NCBI GenBank assembly: GCA_022843485.1 | Contig: JALHNM010000012.1 | Span: forward strand, 1-64,000 | Direction: 5' to 3' | Length of the DNA: 64,000 nt | DNA from: Fimbriimonadaceae bacterium | Lineage (GTDB): Bacteria; Armatimonadota; Fimbriimonadia; Fimbriimonadales; Fimbriimonadaceae | Position numbers and translations under genes: made by a program | In this document: one piece after another, positions 19,835 through 30,270 of the stretch | Layout of the letters: each line of letters begins with the position of its first letter | How positions within the stretch are numbered: position 1 is the first letter of the stretch | Notes under the pieces: model-generated | The model's input: the letters and a program-made list of their open reading frames with translations, nothing else | The model's database searches: none | What the model was told of the DNA's origin: nothing

Positions 19835-20479
19835 CCCCCCGGCCCCCGGCCTGCCCTGCGGGTCAGGCCGGGCCACCCGCGTGGTCACTAACAAGTGACT
19901 CACCACCCGCCGTGCCACCCCCGGTGGCACAGCGACGTGGCACGCCCGTCCCGGGCGTGGTCCCTGGGGCGTCCCGCCCCAGGCCGGGGCAGGGGCGGCC
20001 CGCCCCTGGTCCCCAGGGCGGCTCGCCCTGACCAACCCTGGGACCTCGGACGGGTCGCCCTGCAAGTGACCTGACGGGTGGCCCAGCCTGATTGCGGAGC
20101 GAGAGGCCGGGTACAGAGGCGTCCCTCGCCCCGGCCTGCCCTCCGGGTAAGACCGGGCCACACGCGTGGTCGCTCACAATTGACTCACCACCCGCCGTGC
20201 CACCCCTGGTTGCACAGCGACGTGGCACGCCCGTCCCGGGCGTGGTCCCTGGGGCGTCCCGCCCCAGAGCGTGGCTGGGGCGGCCCGCCCCTGGTCCCCA
20301 GGGCGGCTCGCCCTGACCCGCCCAGCACCGGGTTTGCCCGGCCTAATCGCGGAGCGAGAGGCCGGGGATCGGAGCGTCTCGATTCCCGGCCTGCCCTCCG
20401 GGTCAGGCCGGGCCACCCGCCGCTGGCACTCTCGTTGCGAGGCGATGAAAATCGAGGGAAGGGATGTACACTGGAACAG
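19835..20479 (+). repeat. Intergenic repeat block: family B, A, B, A
   Basis: No gene supported. Two family-B modules (about 19920-20035 and 20195-20320), each with four hairpins; in the second these are 20226-20244 (8-bp stem, loop TCC), 20249-20267 (8 bp, loop TCC), a GGGGCG/CGCCCC stem near 20277-20291 and CAGGGCG/CGCCCTG near 20299-20315. Two family-A modules (20076-20165, 20329-20421) run from GGGTGGCCC-like ends to GGTCAGGCCGGGCCACCCG-like ends. All copies have the same orientation. Confidence 0.8.
20467..20472 (+). promoter_or_regulatory. -10 box TACACT, leaderless PEP-CTERM gene
   Basis: TACACT ends 7 bases before the ATG at 20480. Confidence 0.5.
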
Positions 20480-21151
20480 ATGAACCGGATCGCGCTCCTC
20501 GCCTTAGGCTTCTGCGCCGCCCCGGCGGCCCTTGGGGCGTTCGTGTTCGACGACTTCGTCTCCGGCGGGTGGTCCTGGGAAGTCCAGGGGCTGGGGCAGA
20601 AGAGTAACGTCGAGACCGGGCTCGACCGGAACCACACGCCTTCCGGCGACCGGACGACGAGTTTCGACGTCTACCGGAACGAGCGCAACGCGCTCGTCTT
20701 GCTCCGAGTCGGCGGTGGCGGGGCCGAGGTCACGGCGTCCAGGTCCGACGTGTCGTCCCGAATCAACTTTCGCTACGGAATCGCGAGCCGGCTCCAAGCG
20801 GACCTCTCGTTCGCCGACCGGATTGAGGTCGATTACACGTCCCAACCGCCCCAGTTCATCGCGACGACGTACGAGGTGTTCCTTCTCGACGAGGACGGCG
20901 TCGTAGCAACAAGCTCGATCGCGTCCGCAACGCCGACCGGCATCCGGTTCCTGCGACGGGACTTCACCGGGCCGATCGATTGGTCGAGGATCAAGCAGTC
21001 CGGCTTCTCGGCGAACTGGGTCAACGACAGCCGTCAGCTCCGGAGTTACCGTTTCACCGAGTTCCGCGCCGTACCGGAGCCAGGCCTGCTCCTTGCCGCC
21101 GGCGCAGGGCTGGCGGCCGTCTGTCGCAGACGGCCGCCAAAGCGCGGCTAA
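20480..21151 (+). CDS. PEP-CTERM sorting-signal protein
   Basis: 223 residues. N-terminal signal MNRIALLALGFCAAPAALGA, a beta-rich body of about 170 residues (FDDFVSGGWSWEVQG...), and a C-terminal tripartite tag: VPEPG, a hydrophobic stretch (LLLAAGAGLAAV) and CRRRPPKR. This is the PEP-CTERM arrangement recognised by exosortase, which moves proteins to the cell surface or into extracellular matrix. No exosortase gene is in the window. It stands alone between family-A repeats. Confidence 0.88.
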   Translation: MNRIALLALGFCAAPAALGAFVFDDFVSGGWSWEVQGLGQKSNVETGLDRNHTPSGDRTTSFDVYRNERNALVLLRVGGGGAEVTASRSDVSSRINFRYGIASRLQADLSFADRIEVDYTSQPPQFIATTYEVFLLDEDGVVATSSIASATPTGIRFLRRDFTGPIDWSRIKQSGFSANWVNDSRQLRSYRFTEFRAVPEPGLLLAAGAGLAAVCRRRPPKRG

Positions 21152-21210
21152 GGCTGCCAGACCACGGGCACGTTGTGCTGCGTGGCCCGCCACTTTCCGC
21201 CGAAGAAGAC

Positions 21211-21297
21211 GGGTGGCCCGGCTCAATCGCAGAGCAAGTGGCCGGGGGATCGAAGCGTCCCCCGGCCTGCCCTCTGGGTCAGGCCGGGCCACCCGTC
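21211..21297 (+). repeat. Family-A inverted repeat
   Basis: Starts GGGTGGCCCGGCT and ends AGGCCGGGCCACCCGT; the ends are imperfect reverse complements, with a second internal pair around GGCCGGGGG/CCCCCGGCC. Confidence 0.75.
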
Positions 21298-21313
21298 AGC
21301 CATAATCCTCGAA

Positions 21314-21685
21314 ATGAGTCGATGGCTGACGTTGCTCGCCGTTGTGAGCGGTTCCCTTCTTAGCTGCGCGCCAGCTCAACATCGCGTAGTCGGCATGTGG
21401 AGTCTCGACGAGGCAGCTTCGACGAAACCTTCCTTGGGGACCCTGCAAACGATGGTCGGCGGCACGCAGATCGAGTTCGCAGACTCGGGCCGATACAAGG
21501 GATCCCTCGGGATACTCGAAGCGAAGGGGACGTATCGCGTCAGCGGCGACCAAGTCTTCCTTGTAGGCAAGGACGGTGAGGACTTCGCCAAGTTCCGCCT
21601 GTCTTCTGATGGCCAGCGTCTGACAAGCGTTCCGGAGTTCAAGTCGGACGGTGTCGCTGTGTTCGTGCGTGTTCCCGATCAGTGA
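21314..21685 (+). CDS. Hypothetical lipoprotein
   Basis: 123 residues. MSRWLTLLAVVSGSLLSCAPA has a lipobox (LLSC). The mature part alternates short strands (VVGMWSLDEA, GGTQIEFADSGRYKG, AKGTYRVSGDQVFLVGKDG) in the manner of lipocalin-like WxL proteins that open with a G-x-W motif. No function proposed. Flanked on both sides by family-A repeats. Confidence 0.75.
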   Translation: MSRWLTLLAVVSGSLLSCAPAQHRVVGMWSLDEAASTKPSLGTLQTMVGGTQIEFADSGRYKGSLGILEAKGTYRVSGDQVFLVGKDGEDFAKFRLSSDGQRLTSVPEFKSDGVAVFVRVPDQ

Positions 21686-21701
21686 ACCCCTTGTCGACGA
21701 C

Positions 21702-21790
21702 GGGTGGCCCGGCCTAGTCACGAAGCGAGGGGCCGGGGACGAGGGCTCCTCGATCCCCGGCCTGCCCTCCGGATCAGACCGGGCCACCCT
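21702..21790 (+). repeat. Family-A inverted repeat
   Basis: GGGTGGCCCGGCC at the left and CCGGGCCACCC at the right end, with internal GGCCGGGGA/TCCCCGGCC pairing. Confidence 0.75.
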
Positions 21791-21806
21791 TCCGTAGTGT
21801 TGAGCC

Positions 21807-21812
21807 TAAACT
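21807..21812 (+). promoter_or_regulatory. -10 box TAAACT, AraC-type regulator
   Basis: TAAACT ends 9 bases before the ATG at 21822. It directly abuts a GTG at 21813, which argues for the ATG as the true start. Confidence 0.45.
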
Positions 21813-21821
21813 GTGGAGGAG

Positions 21822-22682
21822 ATGGTCGAGCTCAATCCGCAGGTCCCGCGGCTTTGGTCGGTGAACGCCCTTCTGAGCGGCAGGTCGCGTAGCCTTGCCT
21901 CGGGGCCCCACGAGGGGACTTTGTCGGTCAAGACCGTCGTCAGCGGGCACTGCGTCTATAGAACCCGGACGAAGGTCTTCCGGCTTCAACCGGGCGTGTT
22001 CACGGTGCTGCCGGAGGGCCGTGCGTACGAACTGGAGATCAGCCGGCCATGCGAGACCCTCTCGGTGTTCTTCCGGCCCGGGTTTCTGCAGGAGGTCGAG
22101 GCGGCTGCGACCGGAATCGACCTGGACTCGCCCGAGGTCGGCTCGGCGAGGAACGGCTTCGCGATGCCGGAGCGGCTGGAGGCCGCGCCTTCGCGCCTGC
22201 ACTCGCTGGCCCTGCGCCTTCAGAGCGCGCTGAAGATGGGCGAAGACCCGATGCTGGCCGAGACGCTCGTCCTGGAGGCCGCCCGCGAGGTCGCCTCTTA
22301 CTCTACCGAGGCGCAAAGGGAATCGGAAAGCCTGGGCTATGCGCGGCTCCCGGTCCGGCAAGAGGCGTTCCGCCGCCTGAACCGCGCGAGAGACCTGCTG
22401 ATCGACGAGATGGACAAGCCGCTCAGATTGGCGGACCTCGCCCGCGAGGCCTGCCTCTCGCCGAGCCAGTTCCACTTCCTCTTCCGGTCGGCCTTCGGCG
22501 TGAGCCCGCACGCGTTCCTCACGGCCCGACGGGTCGACCGGGCCGTCCTTCTGCTCGGGACGACGGACTGGCCGCTCTGGTCCATCGCGTCGGCGGTGGG
22601 CTTCAAGAGCGAGTCGCACCTGTGCCGCCTGGTCGCCCGGGCCACGGGCCGGAGGACGAGCGAGCTTCGCTCGGTTCCGTAA
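21822..22682 (+). CDS. AraC family transcriptional regulator
   Basis: 286 residues. The N-terminal half resembles a cupin sensor domain (FRLQPGVFTVLPEGRAYELEI). The C-terminal 100 residues form a double helix-turn-helix: PLRLADLAREACLSPSQFHF, then AFGVSPHAFLTARRVDRAVLLL, and WSIASAVGFKSESHLCRLV. The gene for a VOC protein follows 46 bases downstream and is a candidate target, although it has its own promoter box. Confidence 0.9.
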   Translation: MVELNPQVPRLWSVNALLSGRSRSLASGPHEGTLSVKTVVSGHCVYRTRTKVFRLQPGVFTVLPEGRAYELEISRPCETLSVFFRPGFLQEVEAAATGIDLDSPEVGSARNGFAMPERLEAAPSRLHSLALRLQSALKMGEDPMLAETLVLEAAREVASYSTEAQRESESLGYARLPVRQEAFRRLNRARDLLIDEMDKPLRLADLAREACLSPSQFHFLFRSAFGVSPHAFLTARRVDRAVLLLGTTDWPLWSIASAVGFKSESHLCRLVARATGRRTSELRSVP

Positions 22683-22714
22683 GATCGGACAATGTCGGGG
22701 CCGCCCCGGCCGTG

Positions 22715-22720
22715 TACGCT
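22715..22720 (+). promoter_or_regulatory. -10 box TACGCT, leaderless VOC gene
   Basis: TACGCT ends 8 bases before the ATG at 22729. Confidence 0.45.
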
Positions 22721-22728
22721 CCGGGCCG

Positions 22729-23238
22729 ATGGAAAACCGCGAATGGACAAGGCGGCAGATCGTCGCGACGGCGGTGACGCTGGTGACGACGCCGTTCGTG
22801 CCAGGGATCGTCAGGACCCAACCCATGAAGAACGTCAACAAGATCAAGGGCGTCGGCCAGATCGCCCTCACGGTGTCGGACATCGCCAAGGCCAAAGCCT
22901 TCTACTGCGACGTGCTCGGCCTCGAGCACCTGTTCGACGCAGGCCCGAACCTCTCGTTCATCAACGCCGGCAACCTGCGCCTCATGCTTACCCTTCCCGA
23001 GTCCGGTCTGCAAGCCGGGCGCAACTCGGTCGTCTACTACCGCGTGGAGAGCGTGGAGGAGGCCCACAAGGAGGCCGTGGCCAAGGGTGCCAAAGCCGCG
23101 GGCGAGCCGCACATGATCGCCCAGATGGACGACCACGAGCTCTGGATGGGCTTCCTGCAAGACCCCGAGGGCAACCTGCTCGGCCTGATGGAAGAGAGGC
23201 GGCGGGACGATAGCCCGGCCAAGTCGCTGAGCGACTGA
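22729..23238 (+). CDS. VOC family protein with N-terminal Tat-like leader
   Basis: 169 residues. Residues 1-25 (MENREWTRRQIVATAVTLVTTPF) look like a twin-arginine leader: TRRQ followed by a moderately hydrophobic stretch. The rest is one VOC module pair: GQIALTVSDIAKAKAFYCDVLGLEHLF, LSFINAGNLRLML, WMGFLQDPEGNLLGLM. If exported, this would be unusual for a glyoxalase-fold protein. A downstream ATG (before KNVNKIKG) would give a cytosolic 142-residue form. The substrate is unknown. Confidence 0.82.
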   Translation: MENREWTRRQIVATAVTLVTTPFVPGIVRTQPMKNVNKIKGVGQIALTVSDIAKAKAFYCDVLGLEHLFDAGPNLSFINAGNLRLMLTLPESGLQAGRNSVVYYRVESVEEAHKEAVAKGAKAAGEPHMIAQMDDHELWMGFLQDPEGNLLGLMEERRRDDSPAKSLSD

Positions 23239-23720
23239 GGCGCCCCGCCTCAGGCCGTGGCAGGGGCGGCCCGCCCCTGGTCCCCAGGGCGGCTCGCCCT
23301 GACCCACCCGCCGCCGCGGATGGCCCGGCCAAGCCTCGGAGCGATAGGCCGGGGATCGAGACGCCCCGATTCCCGGCCTGCACGCCCGTGGTCAAGCGAG
23401 TCCACACGCCCGCCCATAAGCCCGGCCTGCCCTCCGGGTCAGTGCGGGCCACCCGCTGGGTTGGGCCGGGCCACCCGCCGTGCCACCCTCGGTGGCACAG
23501 CGACGTGGCACGTCCGTCCCGGGCGTGGTCCCTGGGGCGTCCCGCCCCAGAGCGTGGCTGGGGCGGGCCGCCCCTGGTCCCCAGGGCGGCTCGCCCTGCG
23601 GGTGGCCGGGGGGGTGGACGGATCAGATCCGGCCGCCCTTGTTCGCTTGCCTGTGCGCCATGGCAAGCGGCTCCCGCTGACCGTGGGAGACCGGGGCGCA
23701 CCGTACCGTCATGCCCCTTT
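23239..23720 (+). repeat. Intergenic repeat block: families B, A, B
   Basis: Partial B module at about 23240-23310, degenerate A modules at 23317-23470, and a full B module at 23481-23600 with the four GC hairpins. The rest to 23720 shows no gene. Confidence 0.75.
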
Positions 23721-23721
23721 G

Positions 23722-23781
23722 ACGCCTCTTACACGCCTCTTCAACGCCTCTTTAAGGGTTTAAGAGGCGTGTAAGAGGCGT
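23722..23781. repeat. Family-C element: perfect 20-bp inverted repeat of phased 9-mers
   Basis: ACGCCTCTTACACGCCTCTT (23722-23741) and its exact reverse complement (23762-23781) with a 20-base spacer. The 9-mer ACGCCTCTT (allowing AACGCCTCT in the spacer) starts at 23722, 23733 and 23744, and its inverse at 23762 and 23773, always 11 bp apart. A second copy is at 30055-30114. Confidence 0.85.
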
Positions 23782-23819
23782 GCGCCACCCCTCGAAGAGG
23801 TCGGTCGGCAGGATGTGCC

Positions 23820-23975
23820 CGGTGGCCCGGCCTCGTTGCGGATCGTCTGAAGGGGGACGAAGCGGCCCCGGCCTGCCCTTCGGCCCTGGCCCGGCCAACC
23901 GCCATTGCACCCCCTCCCGGCCTGCCCTTCGGGTCAGGCCGGGCCACCCGCCTTCGGGTCAGCCCTGGCCACCCG
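23820..23975 (+). repeat. Family-A repeats, two partial copies
   Basis: GGTGGCCCGGCC at 23821 opens one copy; CTGCCCTTCGGGTCAGGCCG followed by GGCCACCCG closes another near 23950. A third truncated end (CCCTGGCCACCCGG) follows. No gene. Confidence 0.7.
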
Positions 23976-24018
23976 GCCGCAGAGACCGTCACACGATGGG
24001 CCTGGGTGGAAAACAAGC

Positions 24019-24044
24019 GTGGGCGCCTCTTGTGAGGCGCCCAC
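24019..24044 (-). terminator. Intrinsic terminator for the 24068-24586 gene
   Basis: An 11-bp perfect stem GTGGGCGCCTC/GAGGCGCCCAC with loop TTGT. On the minus strand it is followed by ACGCTTGTTTTCC, a T-rich run, 24 bases after the stop codon. Confidence 0.75.
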
Positions 24045-24067
24045 GGATCGGAGAGAGCGGTCTTAGC

Positions 24068-24586
24068 TTACTGCCAGTTGACGTCCCAGGTGAGCTCGTC
24101 GAGAGCGACCCGCCACTTCGGCAGGGTGACCGGGCCGCGGGCATCGACCCAGTACCGGATCTTCATCTGGCCTCCGCTGCCAGTGAAGCGCCAGCACAGC
24201 GGGATGTCCACGACGGTGCGCGTGTCCGTCCTGCGGATCGGGCCGCGGTAGACCTCGACGAACCGGTTCGAGTTCCACTCCCACATCTCGACGTACTCGA
24301 CGAGACCCACAGTCGTGGCCGCCGATTCGATCGCGAGGGTCATGGTCTGCGGGTCCGGGGCGCCGCACACGACCTCGCCCTCGATGTCGATCGGGTTGTC
24401 GTAACCCGAAATGCGGATTCCGTTCTCGACGACGAGTCGGTTGTTGTCGCTCGACTGGAGGCTTCCGAGCGTGCCCTCGACGACGCGACCCCGCTTCACG
24501 GTCATCTGCTGGGGACCGAAGACGAAAGCCGCGGCCATTGCGGTCAAGGCGAGGATCGAGGTGAGTGCCAGTGTTTTCGTTCTCAT
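24068..24586 (-). CDS. Secreted hypothetical protein
   Basis: 172 residues. MRTKTLALTSILALTAMAAAFVFG is a signal peptide or N-anchor. The mature part is beta-rich with Arg/Trp-rich strands (YVEMWEWNSNRFVEVYRG, IPLCWRFTGSGGQMKIRYWV). The start at 24586 is preferred since the upstream in-frame part is short and basic. A TAATCT box lies about 35 bases upstream on the minus strand, and a good terminator follows the gene. The family is not recognised. Confidence 0.75.
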   Translation of the reverse strand: MRTKTLALTSILALTAMAAAFVFGPQQMTVKRGRVVEGTLGSLQSSDNNRLVVENGIRISGYDNPIDIEGEVVCGAPDPQTMTLAIESAATTVGLVEYVEMWEWNSNRFVEVYRGPIRRTDTRTVVDIPLCWRFTGSGGQMKIRYWVDARGPVTLPKWRVALDELTWDVNWQ

Positions 24587-24671
24587 TGTTCTGCCCACGG
24601 CGGACCTGATCCGCACATCACTCAGATTACTTTGCTTAGAACGAAGGTTACAAGCCCGAAGCCGAAACTCT

Positions 24672-25024
24672 GGTACGACGGGTGGCCCGGCCTCGTCGGT
24701 GAGCGAGAGGCCGGGAACCGAAGCGTCTCGACTCCCGGCCTGCCCTCCGGGTCAGGCCGGGCCACCCGCCCGTGGCACGCCCGTCCCGGGCGTGGTCCCT
24801 GGGAAGTCCCGCCCCAGGCCGTGGCTCGCGGGGCCCGCCCCTGGTCTCCAGGGCGGCCCGCCCTGACCCGCCCAGCAGCGCGCGTGGCCCGTACTTCTCG
24901 CGAAGCAACAGGCCGGGTGCGGCACCGACCCCATTCCCGGCCTGCCCTCCGGATCAGGCCGGGCCACCCGACTGCCCTGCGGGTCAGGCCGGGCCACTCG
25001 CTGGGCCGGGCCACCCGGCCAGCC
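24672..25024 (+). repeat. Intergenic repeat block: families A, B, A
   Basis: A complete family-A copy (24680-24771), a family-B copy with its hairpins (24771-24880), then a degenerate A copy plus two extra right ends (to 25019). No gene. Confidence 0.78.
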
Positions 25025-25025
25025 G

Positions 25026-26438
25026 TCATCGCCCCTTGGCCACCGCCTGCGCCACCATCGCGCTCAGGCCACGGGCGACGTAGTCGGCTTCGAGGTCGTA
25101 GTTGGCCAGGGCAACGATGGTGTAACCGCTCTCGCGGAAGCAGACGAGCTCGCCGCTGATGCCGGGAAAGCCGCCGCCGTGGCCGAACGAGCGGTCGTGC
25201 GGCCACGTGTCGGCCTGGAAGCCGAGCCCATAGGCGAGGGTGCCGGAGGCCTGCGTCATCTCGTCGAGCGTGGAAGGCTTGATCAGCCGCCCCGAGCGCA
25301 GGGCCTCGGCGAACTTCACCAAGTCGAGCACGGACGAGTAGCTGCCGCCAGCCGGGCTGCCCTTGGCCGTGTGCATGAAGAGGTTGTTCTTCGGCTCACC
25401 GGTCAGCCGGGGGCCGTCGAACGACACGTGGGTGTAGCCGAACGCGAGGTTGGGCGTGTCGCTGTCGGCCTCGAACGCTCCGGTGTCGCCCATCTGCAGC
25501 GGGTCGAAGAGCGACGCCTGGAGGTAAGCCCAGTACTCCTGGCCCGAGAGCTTCTCGATGATCGCGCCGAGGACGCAGTAACCCCCGTTGCTGTAGGCGA
25601 ACCGAGACCCCGGCTCGAAGGCCAGCGGCCGCTCCTGGAAGAGGGCCAGCCAGGACGCCACCGTCTTGAACGCGTCCTTCGGGCTCCTCTGGTACTCCTC
25701 GTTGAAGATGTCGCCTACGCCCGACCGGTGGCCCAGCAAGTGCCGCACCGTCACCTTCTCGCGCACGGCCTCGTTCGGGAAGTCCGGCAGCACCTCGCCC
25801 ACCTTGGTGTCGAAGGTCAGCCGGCCGGCCTCGACGAACTGGGCGATGGCCACGGCGGTGAACATCTTGCCCATCGAGGCCAGGTTGAACTTGGTGTCGG
25901 GCCGGTTGGCGACCTTGAAGCCCCGGTGCGCGAGCCCGTAGGCGTCGCTGAAGAGCACCTTGCCGTCCTTGACCAAGGCCACCGCCCCGTTGAACTTGCC
26001 TCGCTCGGCGACTCGTCGCACATGGGCGCGAGCCGTCTCGACGAGGTTGGCCTCGGTCAGGCCCTCGAACGGCGGGTAGTCCACCGCCCGGGCCCGCCGG
26101 GTGCCGAGCCGCCACCCCGTGTCGGTCTTCGACACGAGCATCGTGACGTAGGCCTCCACGTCCTCGAGAGAGACGAGCGCCTCGACCCGGGCATCCGTCT
26201 GGGCGAGCGTCTTGACGAGCTTGAGGCGGCCGGCACGTTGCTTTGCCGCGACCTCTTCGTCGGTGACGTCGGCGATCTCGGCGTCGGTCTTGAGCCAACC
26301 GAGCTCCTTATGGAACGACGAGATCCGCTTGGCGTCCCCGCTGTTGACGGCGGCCAGCCAACGGTCGAGCACCTCGGTCGGCTGGGGAGCGGTCTGGGCG
26401 GCGAGAAGCATGGCGGTGAGCGTGAGTGTGTGGGTCAT
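25026..26438 (-). CDS. Serine hydrolase (class C beta-lactamase/DD-peptidase family)
   Basis: 470 residues. Short signal peptide MTHTLTLTAMLLAAQTA; residues about 20-115 look like an NTF2/SnoaL-type domain; the rest is the beta-lactamase fold with SMGK (Ser-x-x-Lys nucleophile motif), YSN (Tyr-x-Asn) and HGG near the end. Enzymes of this family hydrolyse esters, D-amino peptides or lactams; the substrate is not predictable. It is translated from the same message as the upstream ArsR-like regulator (ATGA overlap), suggesting control by that regulator. Confidence 0.9.
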   Translation of the reverse strand: MTHTLTLTAMLLAAQTAPQPTEVLDRWLAAVNSGDAKRISSFHKELGWLKTDAEIADVTDEEVAAKQRAGRLKLVKTLAQTDARVEALVSLEDVEAYVTMLVSKTDTGWRLGTRRARAVDYPPFEGLTEANLVETARAHVRRVAERGKFNGAVALVKDGKVLFSDAYGLAHRGFKVANRPDTKFNLASMGKMFTAVAIAQFVEAGRLTFDTKVGEVLPDFPNEAVREKVTVRHLLGHRSGVGDIFNEEYQRSPKDAFKTVASWLALFQERPLAFEPGSRFAYSNGGYCVLGAIIEKLSGQEYWAYLQASLFDPLQMGDTGAFEADSDTPNLAFGYTHVSFDGPRLTGEPKNNLFMHTAKGSPAGGSYSSVLDLVKFAEALRSGRLIKPSTLDEMTQASGTLAYGLGFQADTWPHDRSFGHGGGFPGISGELVCFRESGYTIVALANYDLEADYVARGLSAMVAQAVAKGR

Positions 26439-27019
26439 GGTCTTGGTTCTTCTTCTGGCCCTGGGGCCGGGTCTTGAGTCGCGGGCAGATCACGCATGGG
26501 CAGATCCACCAGGGCGAGGCGTCGTAGGCGGCGCTCCGGAGTCCGGGGCCGGTCGGCGAAGCTGCGCACGGTCTCGAGGAGCGCACGGTTGAGCTCGACG
26601 CTCTCCTCTGGCGAGAGGTAGAGGGACAGGCCACGGCACCTCCAGTCGCCTGGGCGCACGCCCGTGCCACGGACGGCGTCGGCGTAGCACGTCATGAGTT
26701 CGGCCAAGAACACGTTCACGTAGTGGGCGTTCTCGTCCACCGAGTCGGGGTCAATGGCGTCGCGGTCGAGCAGGCCGGCGCCGTCGGCGACCGCCAGCAC
26801 CCGCTCCCTCCGCCCCCCCGCGCCCCGCTCGGCGACCACTCGGAGTAGCCCGCCGTCGATCAGAAGGGCGATGTGGCGGTAGAGGCTCGGCATCGGCACG
26901 CTGTCGAGTAGCGAGCCCAACTGCTCGACCGTCAACTCTCGCCCTGCCAAAGCCACCATCACCCGCATCCGAAGCGGGTGCGCGATCAGCTCGTTGCGGG
27001 TCGGTGTCTTCGATCTCAT
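26435..27019 (-). CDS. ArsR/HTH_20-type transcriptional regulator
   Basis: 194 residues with an N-terminal winged helix: HPLRMRVMVALAGRELTVEQ, then SLYRHIALLIDGGLLRVV. The C-terminal part (about 85-190) is helical and may sense a ligand or dimerise (LSPEESVELNRALLETVRSF). It overlaps the serine hydrolase by four bases. A perfect 18-bp palindrome covers its own start codon, so it probably represses its own operon. Confidence 0.85.
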   Translation of the reverse strand: MRSKTPTRNELIAHPLRMRVMVALAGRELTVEQLGSLLDSVPMPSLYRHIALLIDGGLLRVVAERGAGGRRERVLAVADGAGLLDRDAIDPDSVDENAHYVNVFLAELMTCYADAVRGTGVRPGDWRCRGLSLYLSPEESVELNRALLETVRSFADRPRTPERRLRRLALVDLPMRDLPATQDPAPGPEEEPRP

Positions 27020-27032
27020 TATCGATAATGAG
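27015..27032. promoter_or_regulatory. Perfect 18-bp palindromic operator CTCATTATCGATAATGAG
   Basis: The palindrome contains the start codon of the regulator (27017-27019 on the minus strand) and is AT-rich in a very GC-rich setting. Its size and position fit an autoregulatory binding site of a dimeric winged-helix protein. Confidence 0.75.
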
Positions 27033-27104
27033 TTTAATCCACCCCGCCGGAACCGCTGAGTCTCTGGTCCCGAAGGCTAGGGACTACGACGCCATTCCTC
27101 ACGG

Positions 27105-27440
27105 GAATCCGTGGCACGCCCGTCCCGGACCTGGTCCCCGGGCCGTCCCGCCCCAGGCCGTGGCTGGGGCGGCCCGCCCCTGGTCCCCATGGCGGCTCGC
27201 CCTGACCCGGCCTGCCCTCCGGGTCAGGCCGGGCCACCCGCCCCGGGGCGTGGCTGGGGCGGCTCGCCCCTGGTCCCCGGGGCGGCCCGCCCCGACCCGC
27301 CCGCCACCGCAGACGGGTTGCCCGGCCCAGTCACGTCGCAGAGGGTCGAGGCTGGCGCAGATCCTTGTTCCGGTCTCTCCCCCCGTTGGGCACCACCTCT
27401 GATCCCGGCCTGCCCGTCGAGTCAGGCAGGGCCACCCAGC
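27105..27440 (+). repeat. Intergenic repeat block: families B, A, B, A
   Basis: Full B module (27108-27205), short A right end (27206-27240), partial B module (27241-27300) and degenerate A module (27315-27436). The remaining 27440-27528 shows no clear feature apart from the next gene's upstream region. Confidence 0.75.
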
Positions 27441-27528
27441 CGTCGGGGCACACCGGATTTCAGGGATTGGCCCCTTGCGCCTCTGAACCTCCGCTGCTAG
27501 CCCGCGTCATTACCGACGGAGCCACACT

Positions 27529-29049
27529 GTGAGACCTCTACTGATTGCGTTACTCGCCCTCCCCCTCGTCGCTAGCGCCCAGAACTTCGTCAGGATCCCG
27601 AACGTCACGTACGGAACCTACCTAGACTCCAACAACCAGGTCGTCGAGCTCAAACTCGACGTCTACAAGCCCGTCCAAGGCAACGGCCCCTTCCCGTGCG
27701 TGGTTTGGATCCACGGCGGGGGCTGGAGCAAGGGCTCGAAGGAGGCCATCGACCCGCACGTCACCGACCTCACCACCCGAGGGTACGTCGTCGCCAGCAT
27801 CAACTACCGTCTGGTGCAGGCCGGCCCCTGGCCTGCGCAGATCAACGACTGCCGCGGCGCGGTTCGCTTCCTGCGCGCGAACGCCGCCCTCTACGGCATC
27901 GACCCCACCAAGTTCGCGACCTGGGGCAACTCGGCGGGCGGGCACCTCTCGCTCATGATGGCCACCGCCGGCGACACCCGGGAGTACCGCGAAGGGAACC
28001 TGGTCGTCGACCTGGAAGGCACCACGGGCGGCAACCTCGACCAATCGAGCGCCGTCCAGGCCTGCATCAACTACTTCGGCGTGGCCGACCTGCTGTCGAT
28101 GAACGACTTCGACGCCCGGTACGACAGCGGCGACCCGTCCTCTGGCGCCTCGCGCATGGTGGGCGGCCCCCTCCAGGAGCGGCCGGAGATGGCCATCGCC
28201 GCATCGCCGAGCACCTATGTGTCCCCGAACGACCCGCCCACGCTGCACGTCCACGGGGCACAAGACGACCAGGTCCCCTTCAACCAGACCGAGAGCCTGG
28301 CGTACCTCCAGAAGCAGCGCGGTGCTCGGTACGCCATTTGGCCGCTACCGAACGGCGGCCATGGCGGCACCGGGTTCCGAACCCCGCCCACCACGAGCGT
28401 CGTCTACGCCTTCCTCGACGAGCACCTAAAGGGGCGCCAACTGCAGCACCCGAACTTCCTCCCGACCGCGACCCCCGCCCAAGGCCAGGTCCCGCTCGAG
28501 ACCACGCTGCGGCCGATCTTCACCAGGGCCATCTTCCTCCCTGCCCAACCGATCTGGTCGTTCGGGGACAGCGGCGCGAGGGCGGGCGGCACCTTGCAGC
28601 ACCGCTACGAGTGGACGGGCGAGTTCCCGATGTCGGTGACCGTCCGGCTCGGCGACAACGGGGTCACGACGAACACCGCGCTCGTGCGAGTGTTCGCTCC
28701 GGGCAGCGGCCCCCAAGGGACGCTCCGGTTCCACAACACCTCGCGGCTCGCCCGAGAGGTCGGGACGGCCATCTGGGTGCGGGTCTTGCGGCAGCTCGGG
28801 TCCACCGGCGCGGTCAGCGTGAGCTTCCGCACGTCTCCCGGTTCGGCGCTGCCGGGCCTCGACTACGTCCACACCGAGGGCCGACTCGACTTCGCGGACG
28901 GCGAGACAGTCAAGGTCATCAAGGTCCCGGTCATCGACGACGGGGTCACGGAGCCCGAGGAGAACTTCTTCATCGAGATGGGCAACCCGACCGGCGGCGC
29001 CGTCGTCGGCGTCCCCGGCCGAGTGACCGTCCGCCTCGTCGACCAGTAA
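27529..29049 (+). CDS. Secreted alpha/beta-hydrolase (carboxylesterase) with C-terminal Calx-beta domain
   Basis: 506 residues. GTG start, then signal peptide MRPLLIALLALPLVASAQ. The hydrolase (about 20-305) has oxyanion motif HGGGWSKG, nucleophile elbow GNSAGG, an Asp in HGAQDDQVPF and His in NGGHGG, all typical of hormone-sensitive-lipase/acetylxylan-esterase-like enzymes. Residues about 395-506 are a Calx-beta repeat (ALPGLDYVHTEGRLDFADGE, VIDDGVTEPEENFFIEM). A middle region of roughly 85 residues resembles a PKD-like beta module. It probably degrades acylated polysaccharide or ester substrates at the cell surface. Confidence 0.88.
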   Translation: MRPLLIALLALPLVASAQNFVRIPNVTYGTYLDSNNQVVELKLDVYKPVQGNGPFPCVVWIHGGGWSKGSKEAIDPHVTDLTTRGYVVASINYRLVQAGPWPAQINDCRGAVRFLRANAALYGIDPTKFATWGNSAGGHLSLMMATAGDTREYREGNLVVDLEGTTGGNLDQSSAVQACINYFGVADLLSMNDFDARYDSGDPSSGASRMVGGPLQERPEMAIAASPSTYVSPNDPPTLHVHGAQDDQVPFNQTESLAYLQKQRGARYAIWPLPNGGHGGTGFRTPPTTSVVYAFLDEHLKGRQLQHPNFLPTATPAQGQVPLETTLRPIFTRAIFLPAQPIWSFGDSGARAGGTLQHRYEWTGEFPMSVTVRLGDNGVTTNTALVRVFAPGSGPQGTLRFHNTSRLAREVGTAIWVRVLRQLGSTGAVSVSFRTSPGSALPGLDYVHTEGRLDFADGETVKVIKVPVIDDGVTEPEENFFIEMGNPTGGAVVGVPGRVTVRLVDQ

Positions 29050-29074
29050 GGTCGGCACGACCGCTAGCCGCCCC

Positions 29075-29190
29075 GGCCCGTGCCTGGGGCGTCCCGCCCC
29101 AGGGTGGCTGGGGCGGCTCGCCCCTGATCCCCCGGGCGGCCCGGCCTGGCCCGGCATGCCCTACGGGTCAGGCCGGGCTACCCGCGGGGT
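29075..29190 (+). repeat. Family B and A repeats (short copies)
   Basis: CTGGGGCGTCCCGCCCCAG hairpin at about 29084-29102 and GGGGCG/CGCCCC-type stem, then a family-A right end (GGTCAGGCCGGGCTACCCG) at 29167-29185. Confidence 0.7.
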
Positions 29191-29198
29191 CCGGGCCG

Positions 29199-29600
29199 TT
29201 AGTGGTCCATGCCGTAGTAGAACTTAGCCTCGGTGATCTTGCCGTCCGCGACCGTGTAGTGCGCCATCTCGCGCATGTCGAACTTCTGGCCGGCCATCGG
29301 GCCTTCCTTGAACGTGCACGACATCCACTGCTCGACGATGAACGTGTCGTCGTGGGGGTACGGCTTGCCGATGCCCATGTCGTGGACCTCGAGGTTGCCG
29401 AAGAAGTGCTCGGCGGCCTGCATCAGGGCCTGCTTGCCCTCCACGATGCGCGGCTGCGGCGAGTCGGGCATGACGAACGCCTCGACGTGGCGGGCGTTGT
29501 CGGCGTAGAGCTCGGCCATCGCCTCCATGTGCTTGCCCTGGGCGCAAAGCTCGCACAGTCGGTTGGCGACGGTCTCGGTCGGGTTCATGGTCGCGGCCAT
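29199..29600 (-). CDS. NTF2-like/SnoaL-domain protein
   Basis: 133 residues. The pattern of a small cone-shaped NTF2-like fold is clear: VANRLCELCAQGKHMEAMAELY, a beta hairpin, KQALMQAAEHFFGNLEVHDM, and C-terminal strands REMAHYTVADGKITEAKFYYG. Such proteins bind or isomerise small molecules; no catalytic residues can be assigned. A TAGGAT box lies 6 bases before the ATG (leaderless). Confidence 0.85.
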   Translation of the reverse strand: MAATMNPTETVANRLCELCAQGKHMEAMAELYADNARHVEAFVMPDSPQPRIVEGKQALMQAAEHFFGNLEVHDMGIGKPYPHDDTFIVEQWMSCTFKEGPMAGQKFDMREMAHYTVADGKITEAKFYYGMDH

Positions 29601-29606
29601 GCCGGG

Positions 29607-29612
29607 ATCCTA
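29607..29612 (-). promoter_or_regulatory. -10 box TAGGAT, leaderless NTF2-like gene
   Basis: On the minus strand, separated by 6 bases from the ATG at 29600. Confidence 0.45.
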
Positions 29613-29689
29613 CCCCGGCAGACCCGGCTCCGTAGTCTTGATTACAGAAACCCCCGCGGCCGCCCCTCCACGGTGCGTCACGCCCGCCG

Positions 29690-29895
29690 ATCCCGGGCGC
29701 GGCCGCTGGGGCGTCCCGCCCCAGGGCCGTGGCTCGGGCGGCCCGCCCCTGGTCCTCAGGGCGGCTCGCCCTGACGCGTGGGCGCACCGCCCTGCAGACC
29801 CGCGAGCCCCTGCTCCCGGCCTGCCCTTCGGGTCAGGCCGGGCCACCCGCCGCCGCCCCGATCCTGGCCAGCCCTACGGGGCAGGCCGGGGAACC
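29690..29895 (+). repeat. Family B and A repeats
   Basis: B module with hairpins CTGGGGCGTCCCGCCCCAG and CAGGGCGGCTCGCCCTG at about 29706-29775; A right end GGTCAGGCCGGGCCACCCG at 29832-29850. The following 29900-30050 shows nothing convincing. Confidence 0.72.
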
Positions 29896-30054
29896 CACCC
29901 CTTCACGGGCGCTAGGGCTCGTGACCGGGGTGATGTCTTGTGCTCCTCGGGCCCTCTCCGTCGGAGGCCTGCCCGGCAGCGGGCCTTGAGGGGCGGCGCG
30001 GAGCGTCGACCTCCGGGCCGGGCCGGGCCGTCTCCCTCCTTGCTGGCCTCTTTG

Positions 30055-30114
30055 ACGCCTCTTACACGCCTCTTCAACGCCTCTTAAACACTTTAAGAGG
30101 CGTGTAAGAGGCGT
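30055..30114. repeat. Family-C element, second copy
   Basis: ACGCCTCTTACACGCCTCTT at 30055-30074 and its exact reverse complement at 30095-30114, again with a 20-base spacer holding a third direct 9-mer. Same 11-bp phasing as the copy at 23722; the spacers differ in their second half, and flanks are partly similar (TTTGACGCC before, TCGAAGAGG after). Confidence 0.85.
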
Positions 30115-30164
30115 CGTGCACCTGTCGAAGAGGCCACCAGGGAGTGTGCAGCCGGGGGCCGGGC

Positions 30165-30270
30165 CGCCTAGCGGGGCGAGTGCCCGAGGAAGGAGGGGCC
30201 CCGGATCCCGGCCTGCCCTCCGGGTCGGGCCGGGCCACCCGCCTTCTGGTCAGGCCGGGCCACCCGCCAC
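30165..30270 (+). repeat. Family-A repeat ends
   Basis: Two right ends (GGTCGGGCCGGGCCACCCG and GGTCAGGCCGGGCCACCCG) near 30222 and 30249 after a degenerate left half. This is the last copy seen in the window. Confidence 0.7.

Follow-up and report, generated by a model that had tools for sequence, protein, structure and literature searches.

A REP family of a Fimbriimonadaceae genome and its probable partner, a tyrosine transposase embedded in frame in metH

The stretch of DNA analysed here, hereafter the window, comprises 64,000 nucleotides of a Fimbriimonadaceae bacterium (positions 1 to 64,000 of contig JALHNM010000012.1, assembly GCA_022843485.1) and falls on contig C12 of the 2.96-Mb genome. 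Between 19.8 and 30.3 kb it carries a cluster of hairpin repeats, family B, all units of which are intergenic in the window, where GC content is 68%. Alignment of the copies gave a two-hairpin family-B unit of 45 nt, GTGG-(8 bp stem, 3-nt loop)-GTCCC-(7 bp stem, 3-nt loop), with the conserved GTGG head placed at the 5′ foot of the first hairpin and GTCCC separating the two. Sequence inspection and a mechanical stem scan located hairpins at every position at which an earlier sequence-only reading had placed them. The four-hairpin copy proposed there as the repeat is real as a run of hairpins, but as a repeating unit it resolves into two 45-nt units in direct tandem, B-I followed by B-II. B-I has TCC/TCC loops and B-II has GCC/GCT loops, head and linker being similar in both, and a fifth hairpin lies upstream in three copies. 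A covariance model was built from 28 units of this genome only and was used with a cut-off of E ≤ 0.01. The features of the cluster are as follows.

19912-19930, + strand: extra upstream hairpin GTGCCACC-CCC-GGTGGCAC, copy 1 (stem scan, single-stranded DNA fold)
19937-19981, + strand: B-I, GTGG-CACGCCCG-TCC-CGGGCGTG-GTCCC-TGGGGCG-TCC-CGCCCCA (alignment, covariance model 71.2 bits)
19986-20030, + strand: B-II with head GGGG, CAGGGGCG-GCC-CGCCCCTG-GTCCC-CAGGGCG-GCT-CGCCCTG (alignment, covariance model)
20197-20215, + strand: extra upstream hairpin, copy 2, one mismatch (inspection)
20222-20266, + strand: B-I unit (alignment, covariance model)
20271-20315, + strand: B-II unit (alignment, covariance model)
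23235-23253, + strand: hairpin CTGAGGCG-CCC-CGCCTCAG, final hairpin of a truncated B-I, overlapping the stop codon of a glyoxalase-like gene (stem scan, alignment)
23257-23301, + strand: B-II unit (alignment, covariance model)
23480-23498, + strand: extra upstream hairpin GTGCCACC-CTC-GGTGGCAC, copy 3 (stem scan)
23505-23549, + strand: B-I unit (alignment, covariance model)
23554-23598, + strand: B-II unit (alignment, covariance model)
24772-24816, + strand: B-I unit, second stem degraded (covariance model)
24821-24865, + strand: B-II unit, first stem degraded (covariance model)
27111-27155, + strand: B-I unit, stems degraded (covariance model)
27160-27204, + strand: B-II unit (alignment, covariance model)
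27250-27294, + strand: B-II unit, solitary (alignment, covariance model)
29083-29103, + strand: hairpin CCTGGGGCG-TCC-CGCCCCAGG, hairpin 2 of a truncated B-I (stem scan)
29104-29148, + strand: B-II unit, degraded (covariance model, 44 bits)
29679-29723, + strand: B-I unit, head degraded (covariance model, 43.3 bits)
29729-29773, + strand: B-II unit (alignment, covariance model)

Scanning for perfect stems of 7 bp or more closed by a 3-nt loop gave 25 in 19835-30270 versus 9 in the other 53.6 kb of the window, and the same scan on first-order Markov shuffles (n = 20) returned 0-4 per shuffle. Folded as single-stranded DNA, 19905-20034 formed five hairpins in series at -55.2 kcal/mol, versus -38.5 ± 2.9 kcal/mol for shuffles (z = -5.8). 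The stems covary: 92.5% of cells are paired versus 35-53% when slid and 79% when shuffled, and two-sided changes number 49 versus 18 expected from shuffling, a statistic that is somewhat favourable because the units were partly chosen for pairing. Compensatory changes are directly visible in the alignment, where the variants CACGCCCG, CACGGCCG, CATGGCCG and CACGTCCG each come with a matching 3′ arm. The GTGG head is present in 24 of 28 aligned units. Family B thus combines a short-loop palindrome, covarying stems and the GT(A/G)G head, all of which are features of repetitive extragenic palindromic (REP) sequences of the GTRG type.

Family B could also be read as a transcribed RNA element, i.e. 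a terminator, an attenuator or mRNA-stabilizing hairpins retained for a role in gene expression and not of mobile origin, as its copies are mostly intergenic and its stems are strong as single strands. Yet inspection found no T-tract after the GC hairpins, as the sequence-only reading had remarked when setting them apart from intrinsic terminators, and Rfam scans of the repeats at both thresholds returned no known RNA family. Moreover, the units of the window keep one orientation between convergent, divergent and co-directional genes alike, and family B, as described below, flanks a transposase gene, occurs in frame within genes and is missing from a genome of the same genus. We therefore consider a pure RNA role very unlikely.

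Composition and genome-wide counts rest on searches and on stretches of the genome. The covariance model identified 37 units: 15 on C12, all on the + strand, plus 22 on other contigs that split evenly between the strands (11 + and 11 -). Because of these 22 units on other contigs, family B is not confined to 19.8-30.3 kb; both its absence outside this region and its single orientation, as claimed before, hold for the window (15/15 units on +) but not for the genome. A random scatter in either orientation without stem covariation, which the sequence-only reading had named as grounds for refutation, was not what we found: both orientations occur genome-wide, yet covariation is strong. When orientation relative to replication was approached through local GC skew, family B lay on the negative-skew strand at 8 of 10 informative loci (one-sided p about 0.055); this agrees with a strand preference, but it is not significant and is suggestive only.

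Most copies are extragenic and the exceptions are in frame. One unit (C3:270871-270915) contributes 15 residues to an M14 carboxypeptidase gene and is absent from the same-genus homologue and from others; further exceptions are metH and, probably, a unit beside a Dus gene. The latter unit (C4:200179-200223; L263 9753-11348, - strand) lies, probably in frame, right after a dihydrouridine synthase domain, where another repeat (SAIRNLQSATPNPQS) adjoins it. The covariance model found zero family-B units in the same-genus genome G001, and a plain DNA search of 60 relatives gave essentially no matches. The latter blank is expected for species-specific REPs, for which a structure-aware model is needed; the model made from this genome alone did recover the ends of in-frame transposase elements in two relatives (G005 and G007).

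A genome-wide search for REP-associated tyrosine transposases (RAYTs), as proposed in the sequence-only reading, returned four, each with a different flanking REP family.

C6:21.6 kb (L039 1106-1594), - strand: stand-alone RAYT with family A (GGGTGG-CCCGGCCTG...)
C2:406 kb (L038): RAYT with family B, inside metH
C1:648 kb (L040 1400-2370): third RAYT, with a GGAG-CGAGCAAGCTCG REP family (GGAGCGAGCAAGCTCGCTAYTCC)
C1:139.9 kb (L276 780-1680): fourth RAYT, with a GGAG-GGTGCCA-GTCCCT-TGGCACC family (GGAG-GGTGCCAGTCCCTTGGCACC)

The family-B model matches each flank of the C2 RAYT once, in inverted orientation (68.2 and 62.5 bits), and has no significant match at the other three loci. Family B is hence found around a cognate RAYT as two inverted copies, which, together with its GTGG palindromes, covarying stems and many, mostly intergenic copies, bears out the initial suggestion of a REP-type element. 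The C2 RAYT scores 75.7 bits (E 3e-21) with NCBIfam NF047646 (REP_Tyr_transpos), just under the cut-off of 80, and passes Pfam Y1_Tnp (42.3 versus a cut-off of 23). Its HUH (NHVH) and catalytic tyrosine (YIEGNP) motifs, as expected of a RAYT, are intact, and the nearest solved structure is TnpA-REP 4ER8. Compared with the motifs of subclass 2.4/group 4 (NH(I/F/V)H, WQ, YIxNNP), NHVH and WQ match and YIEGNP is off at one position. It is a Y1-HUH transposase that, judged by its motifs, would resemble TnpA-REP subclass 2.4/RAYT group 4.

The copies around 20 kb include a 285-bp tandem duplication (19844-20038 versus 20129-20323, 92% identity over 195 nt), and one may argue that family B, while made of REPs, owes its regional copies to local segmental duplication only, the metH RAYT being unrelated to their present spread. 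However, units lie on other contigs, on both strands and with different flanks, their stems bear compensatory changes and the flanks of the C2 RAYT match family B specifically, so we give this possibility little weight.

Two other repeats accompany family B in the window. Family A forms inverted GTGG-headed doublets (GGGTGGCCCGGCCT...AGGCCGGG...CCCGGCCTGCCCTCCGGGTCAGGCCGGGCCACCC), REPIN-like, at 20071-20169, 20326-20424, 21697-21795, 24675-24773 and other places. Two copies (76%) of a 159-nt element, in which GCCTCTT/AAGAGGC makes up a long inverted repeat (ACGCCTCTTAAAcacTTTAAGAGGCGT), lie at 23713-23871 and 30046-30204.

The C2 RAYT lies within one stop-free frame of 844-853 aa, the remainder of which is the cobalamin-dependent methionine synthase MetH, and the sole metH copy of the genome carries it. 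Pfam places the B12-binding domains at 94-296 and the activation domain at 651-843 of the fusion frame, with the RAYT (NF047646) at 417-520; the insertion point is the linker that separates the cobalamin-binding part from the activation domain. The element (L038 1307-2026) begins with GTGG, ends with CCAC and measures exactly 720 bp or 240 codons; without it the metH flanks join to read ...LMEGLGDENQDPIPPRVASHRV / ...FEGLRLMEGLGDENQDPIPPRVASHRVGVVDPD, an ordinary linker. In the metH of those relatives that could be read across the junction, the insert is absent and the linker is short. All 225 of 225 MetH residues invariant among 17 relatives are preserved with no rate increase, and the distance of this MetH from outgroups is no greater than that of its relatives. 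Translation of the RAYT may proceed with that of MetH, of which it would be an internal domain, or may begin at an internal start.

Relatives within the order have RAYTs of this clade in other genes. An in-frame RAYT is found in carB (carbamoyl-phosphate synthase large subunit) of G005, G007 and G002 and, cut by the contig end, of G036, which belongs to the same family as the source genome, and at a different carB site in G059. Others are in frame in a GH38 mannosidase (G007, G061) and in a zinc alcohol dehydrogenase (G062), and two further RAYTs look like C-terminal fusions. The carB linker measures 28-31 aa in insert-free relatives versus 215-271 aa with the insert, and most of these inserts share at the DNA level the ends GTGG-hairpin-spacer-hairpin...CCAC. 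In the alcohol dehydrogenase (L122), GTGG...CCAC ends give no in-frame join, implying that the site lost or gained bases or that the ends differ. Pfam scans of the metH, carB and GH38 fusions found no intein/Hint domain.

A search of GTDB species for RAYTs of this clade gave 544 matches, of which the best 80 were taken. Both flanks of at least 70 aa were in frame at 40 of these 80 loci, with five more cut by contig ends, a figure that should not be taken for an unbiased fraction, given that in-frame members were part of the query alignment and that only the best matches were taken. NCBIfam named the hosts of representatives as ispG, valS, leuS, alaS, DNA polymerase III alpha (dnaE), murC and fabZ, in addition to isochorismate synthase and threonylcarbamoyl-AMP synthase; several adenine methylases were recognized by inspection only. 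One might ascribe such frames to accident, either GC-rich stop-free frames of great length or assembly joins to host gene fragments, given the 68% GC of the window and the many metagenome assemblies. Against this, Pfam and NCBIfam show on the fusions that the same host protein resumes beyond the RAYT on the same strand and in the same frame with normal domain order, relatives have empty sites and in-frame cases occur also at GC 0.46-0.48. Furthermore, in the order-wide list obtained with a general RAYT model all five listed frames above 450 aa belong to this clade, versus 155-393 aa for the other listed RAYTs, and the valS and ispG cases form single groups. Accident is therefore extremely improbable.

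In a quick tree of the RAYT domains, the 12 valS RAYTs formed one group (support 90), as did the six of ispG (99), and those of leuS, isochorismate synthase and hsdR fell in one group each. The simplest reading of each of these groups would be a single insertion followed by inheritance. On the other hand, neither the four RAYTs that share a carB junction nor the two of GH38 formed one clade, for which repeated insertion, replacement and poor resolution are not distinguishable. The valS RAYT occurs at one site in Planctomycetota (L176, L177, L179, L180, L183, L187, L198, L199, L209, L226, L227, L231), and in Verrucomicrobiota IspG has the RAYT in frame at L174, L182, L189, L206, L242 and L251 and at a second site in L220.

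Inheritance of the valS and ispG insertions across whole clades raises the question of domestication, in which the RAYT would serve MetH, CarB, ValS or IspG as a working domain instead of persisting as a selfish insertion. The hosts are unrelated, however, and the sites variable. In G002 the RAYT embedded in carB (L107 1469-3949) is a diverged relic whose tyrosine motif reads SIESNP and whose frame is still open, which suggests that the host frame was kept and not the RAYT. Domestication is accordingly an explanation that we find unlikely.

Taking these observations together, family B is very probably a REP family whose partner is the RAYT embedded in metH, a transposase that would spread B units and occasionally its own element, with in-frame insertions into linkers surviving. 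Family B would consist of non-autonomous mobile repeats recognized as single strands. Its predicted transposase, RAYT-B, would bind and cleave the GTGG-tagged hairpins on single-stranded DNA and spread them, and at times its whole own element, via single-stranded intermediates. An element inserted into a housekeeping gene would be able to persist, and to be expressed along with its host, by lying in frame in a flexible linker. The tandem B-I/B-II composites at 19.8-30.3 kb could then represent a cluster similar to bacterial interspersed mosaic elements, built up in intergenic DNA that tolerates such repeats as units inserted repeatedly and were duplicated locally.

More broadly, it is likely that a clade of REP-RAYT-REP elements (GTGG...CCAC) moves autonomously and has repeatedly settled in frame in housekeeping enzymes across phyla, as a non-splicing counterpart of inteins, family B being the non-autonomous progeny of one such element. 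Its hosts would comprise methionine synthase, carbamoyl-phosphate synthase, valyl-, leucyl- and alanyl-tRNA synthetases, IspG, DNA polymerase III alpha and others, with the transposase as an internal domain. We infer both the mobilization by the RAYT and its translation with the host as a single protein from sequence comparison. Some points weigh against this explanation. Mobility is deduced from filled versus empty sites and not observed, many of the genomes involved are metagenome assemblies and the host could merely tolerate the insert rather than use it. In addition, an AlphaFold model of MetH-RAYT was of low confidence (predicted local distance difference test, pLDDT, 59) and speaks neither for nor against independent folding; it was based on only 18 sequences with no other RAYT rows and was not used as evidence.

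RAYT genes lying between two inverted REPs with GT(A/G)G heads were described by Nunvar (2010, PMC2817692), and according to published biochemistry TnpA-REP proteins use the GTAG head in binding and cleaving REPs as single strands (PMC8266576, PMC3733652). Like these REPtrons (PMC2817692; Di Nocera 2013, PMC3733652), family B has a GT(A/G)G head, a short hairpin, multiple extragenic copies and a RAYT with two inverted REPs; unlike them, it has two hairpins per unit joined by GTCCC, its tandems are direct and not alternating, and its RAYT element lies in frame in a host housekeeping gene. REPINs (PMC3116915) are likewise RAYT-dependent repeat populations, but family-B units stand in direct tandem and not inverted; it is family A that shows the inverted GTGG doublet of REPIN kind. 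Intragenic in-frame REPs are already known (PMC3733652). The Rickettsia palindromic elements and the intragenic GTAG/CGTC REPs (PMC3733652) are in-frame palindromes in functional genes, thought to lie in linkers. They span tens of residues without a transposase, in contrast to the inserts of about 190-245 codons including a transposase described here.

The available portion of Quentin (2018, PMC6006769) describes subclass 2.4/group 4 with NHVH, WQ and YIxxNP motifs in many phyla and with frame-keeping REP insertions inside the tnpA-REP genes themselves, unexpectedly long proteins being put aside there as fusions or annotation errors. What differs from subclass 2.4 as described in that portion, which mentions no RAYT within a host gene, is that a whole RAYT element forms the in-frame insert of a host gene whose sites are empty in relatives. 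As in inteins, a mobile gene sits in frame inside housekeeping proteins, yet the fusions scanned have no Hint/intein domain and the insertions appear to be in linkers rather than active sites. We found no report of a RAYT in frame in housekeeping genes in the literature searched, the coverage of which was incomplete; this absence is weak evidence, and an earlier report is possible. Family B itself is a new REP family and as such belongs to a known kind of element.

RAYTs have been regarded as domesticated transposases that behave like housekeeping genes and are mostly present as single copies, with 'no evidence of tnpAREP mobility' (PMC8266576). In metH, carB and other genes, the contrast of filled with empty sites provides comparative evidence of the movement of whole RAYT elements, with the element ends proposed to the base in metH. 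In-frame residence inside essential enzymes is an unusual strategy, and it would account for the large 'extra domains' in ValS, IspG, LeuS and CarB of Planctomycetota, Verrucomicrobiota and Fimbriimonadaceae genomes. It thereby becomes possible to test directly the mobility of RAYTs, how they select their targets and what burden they place on the host enzyme.

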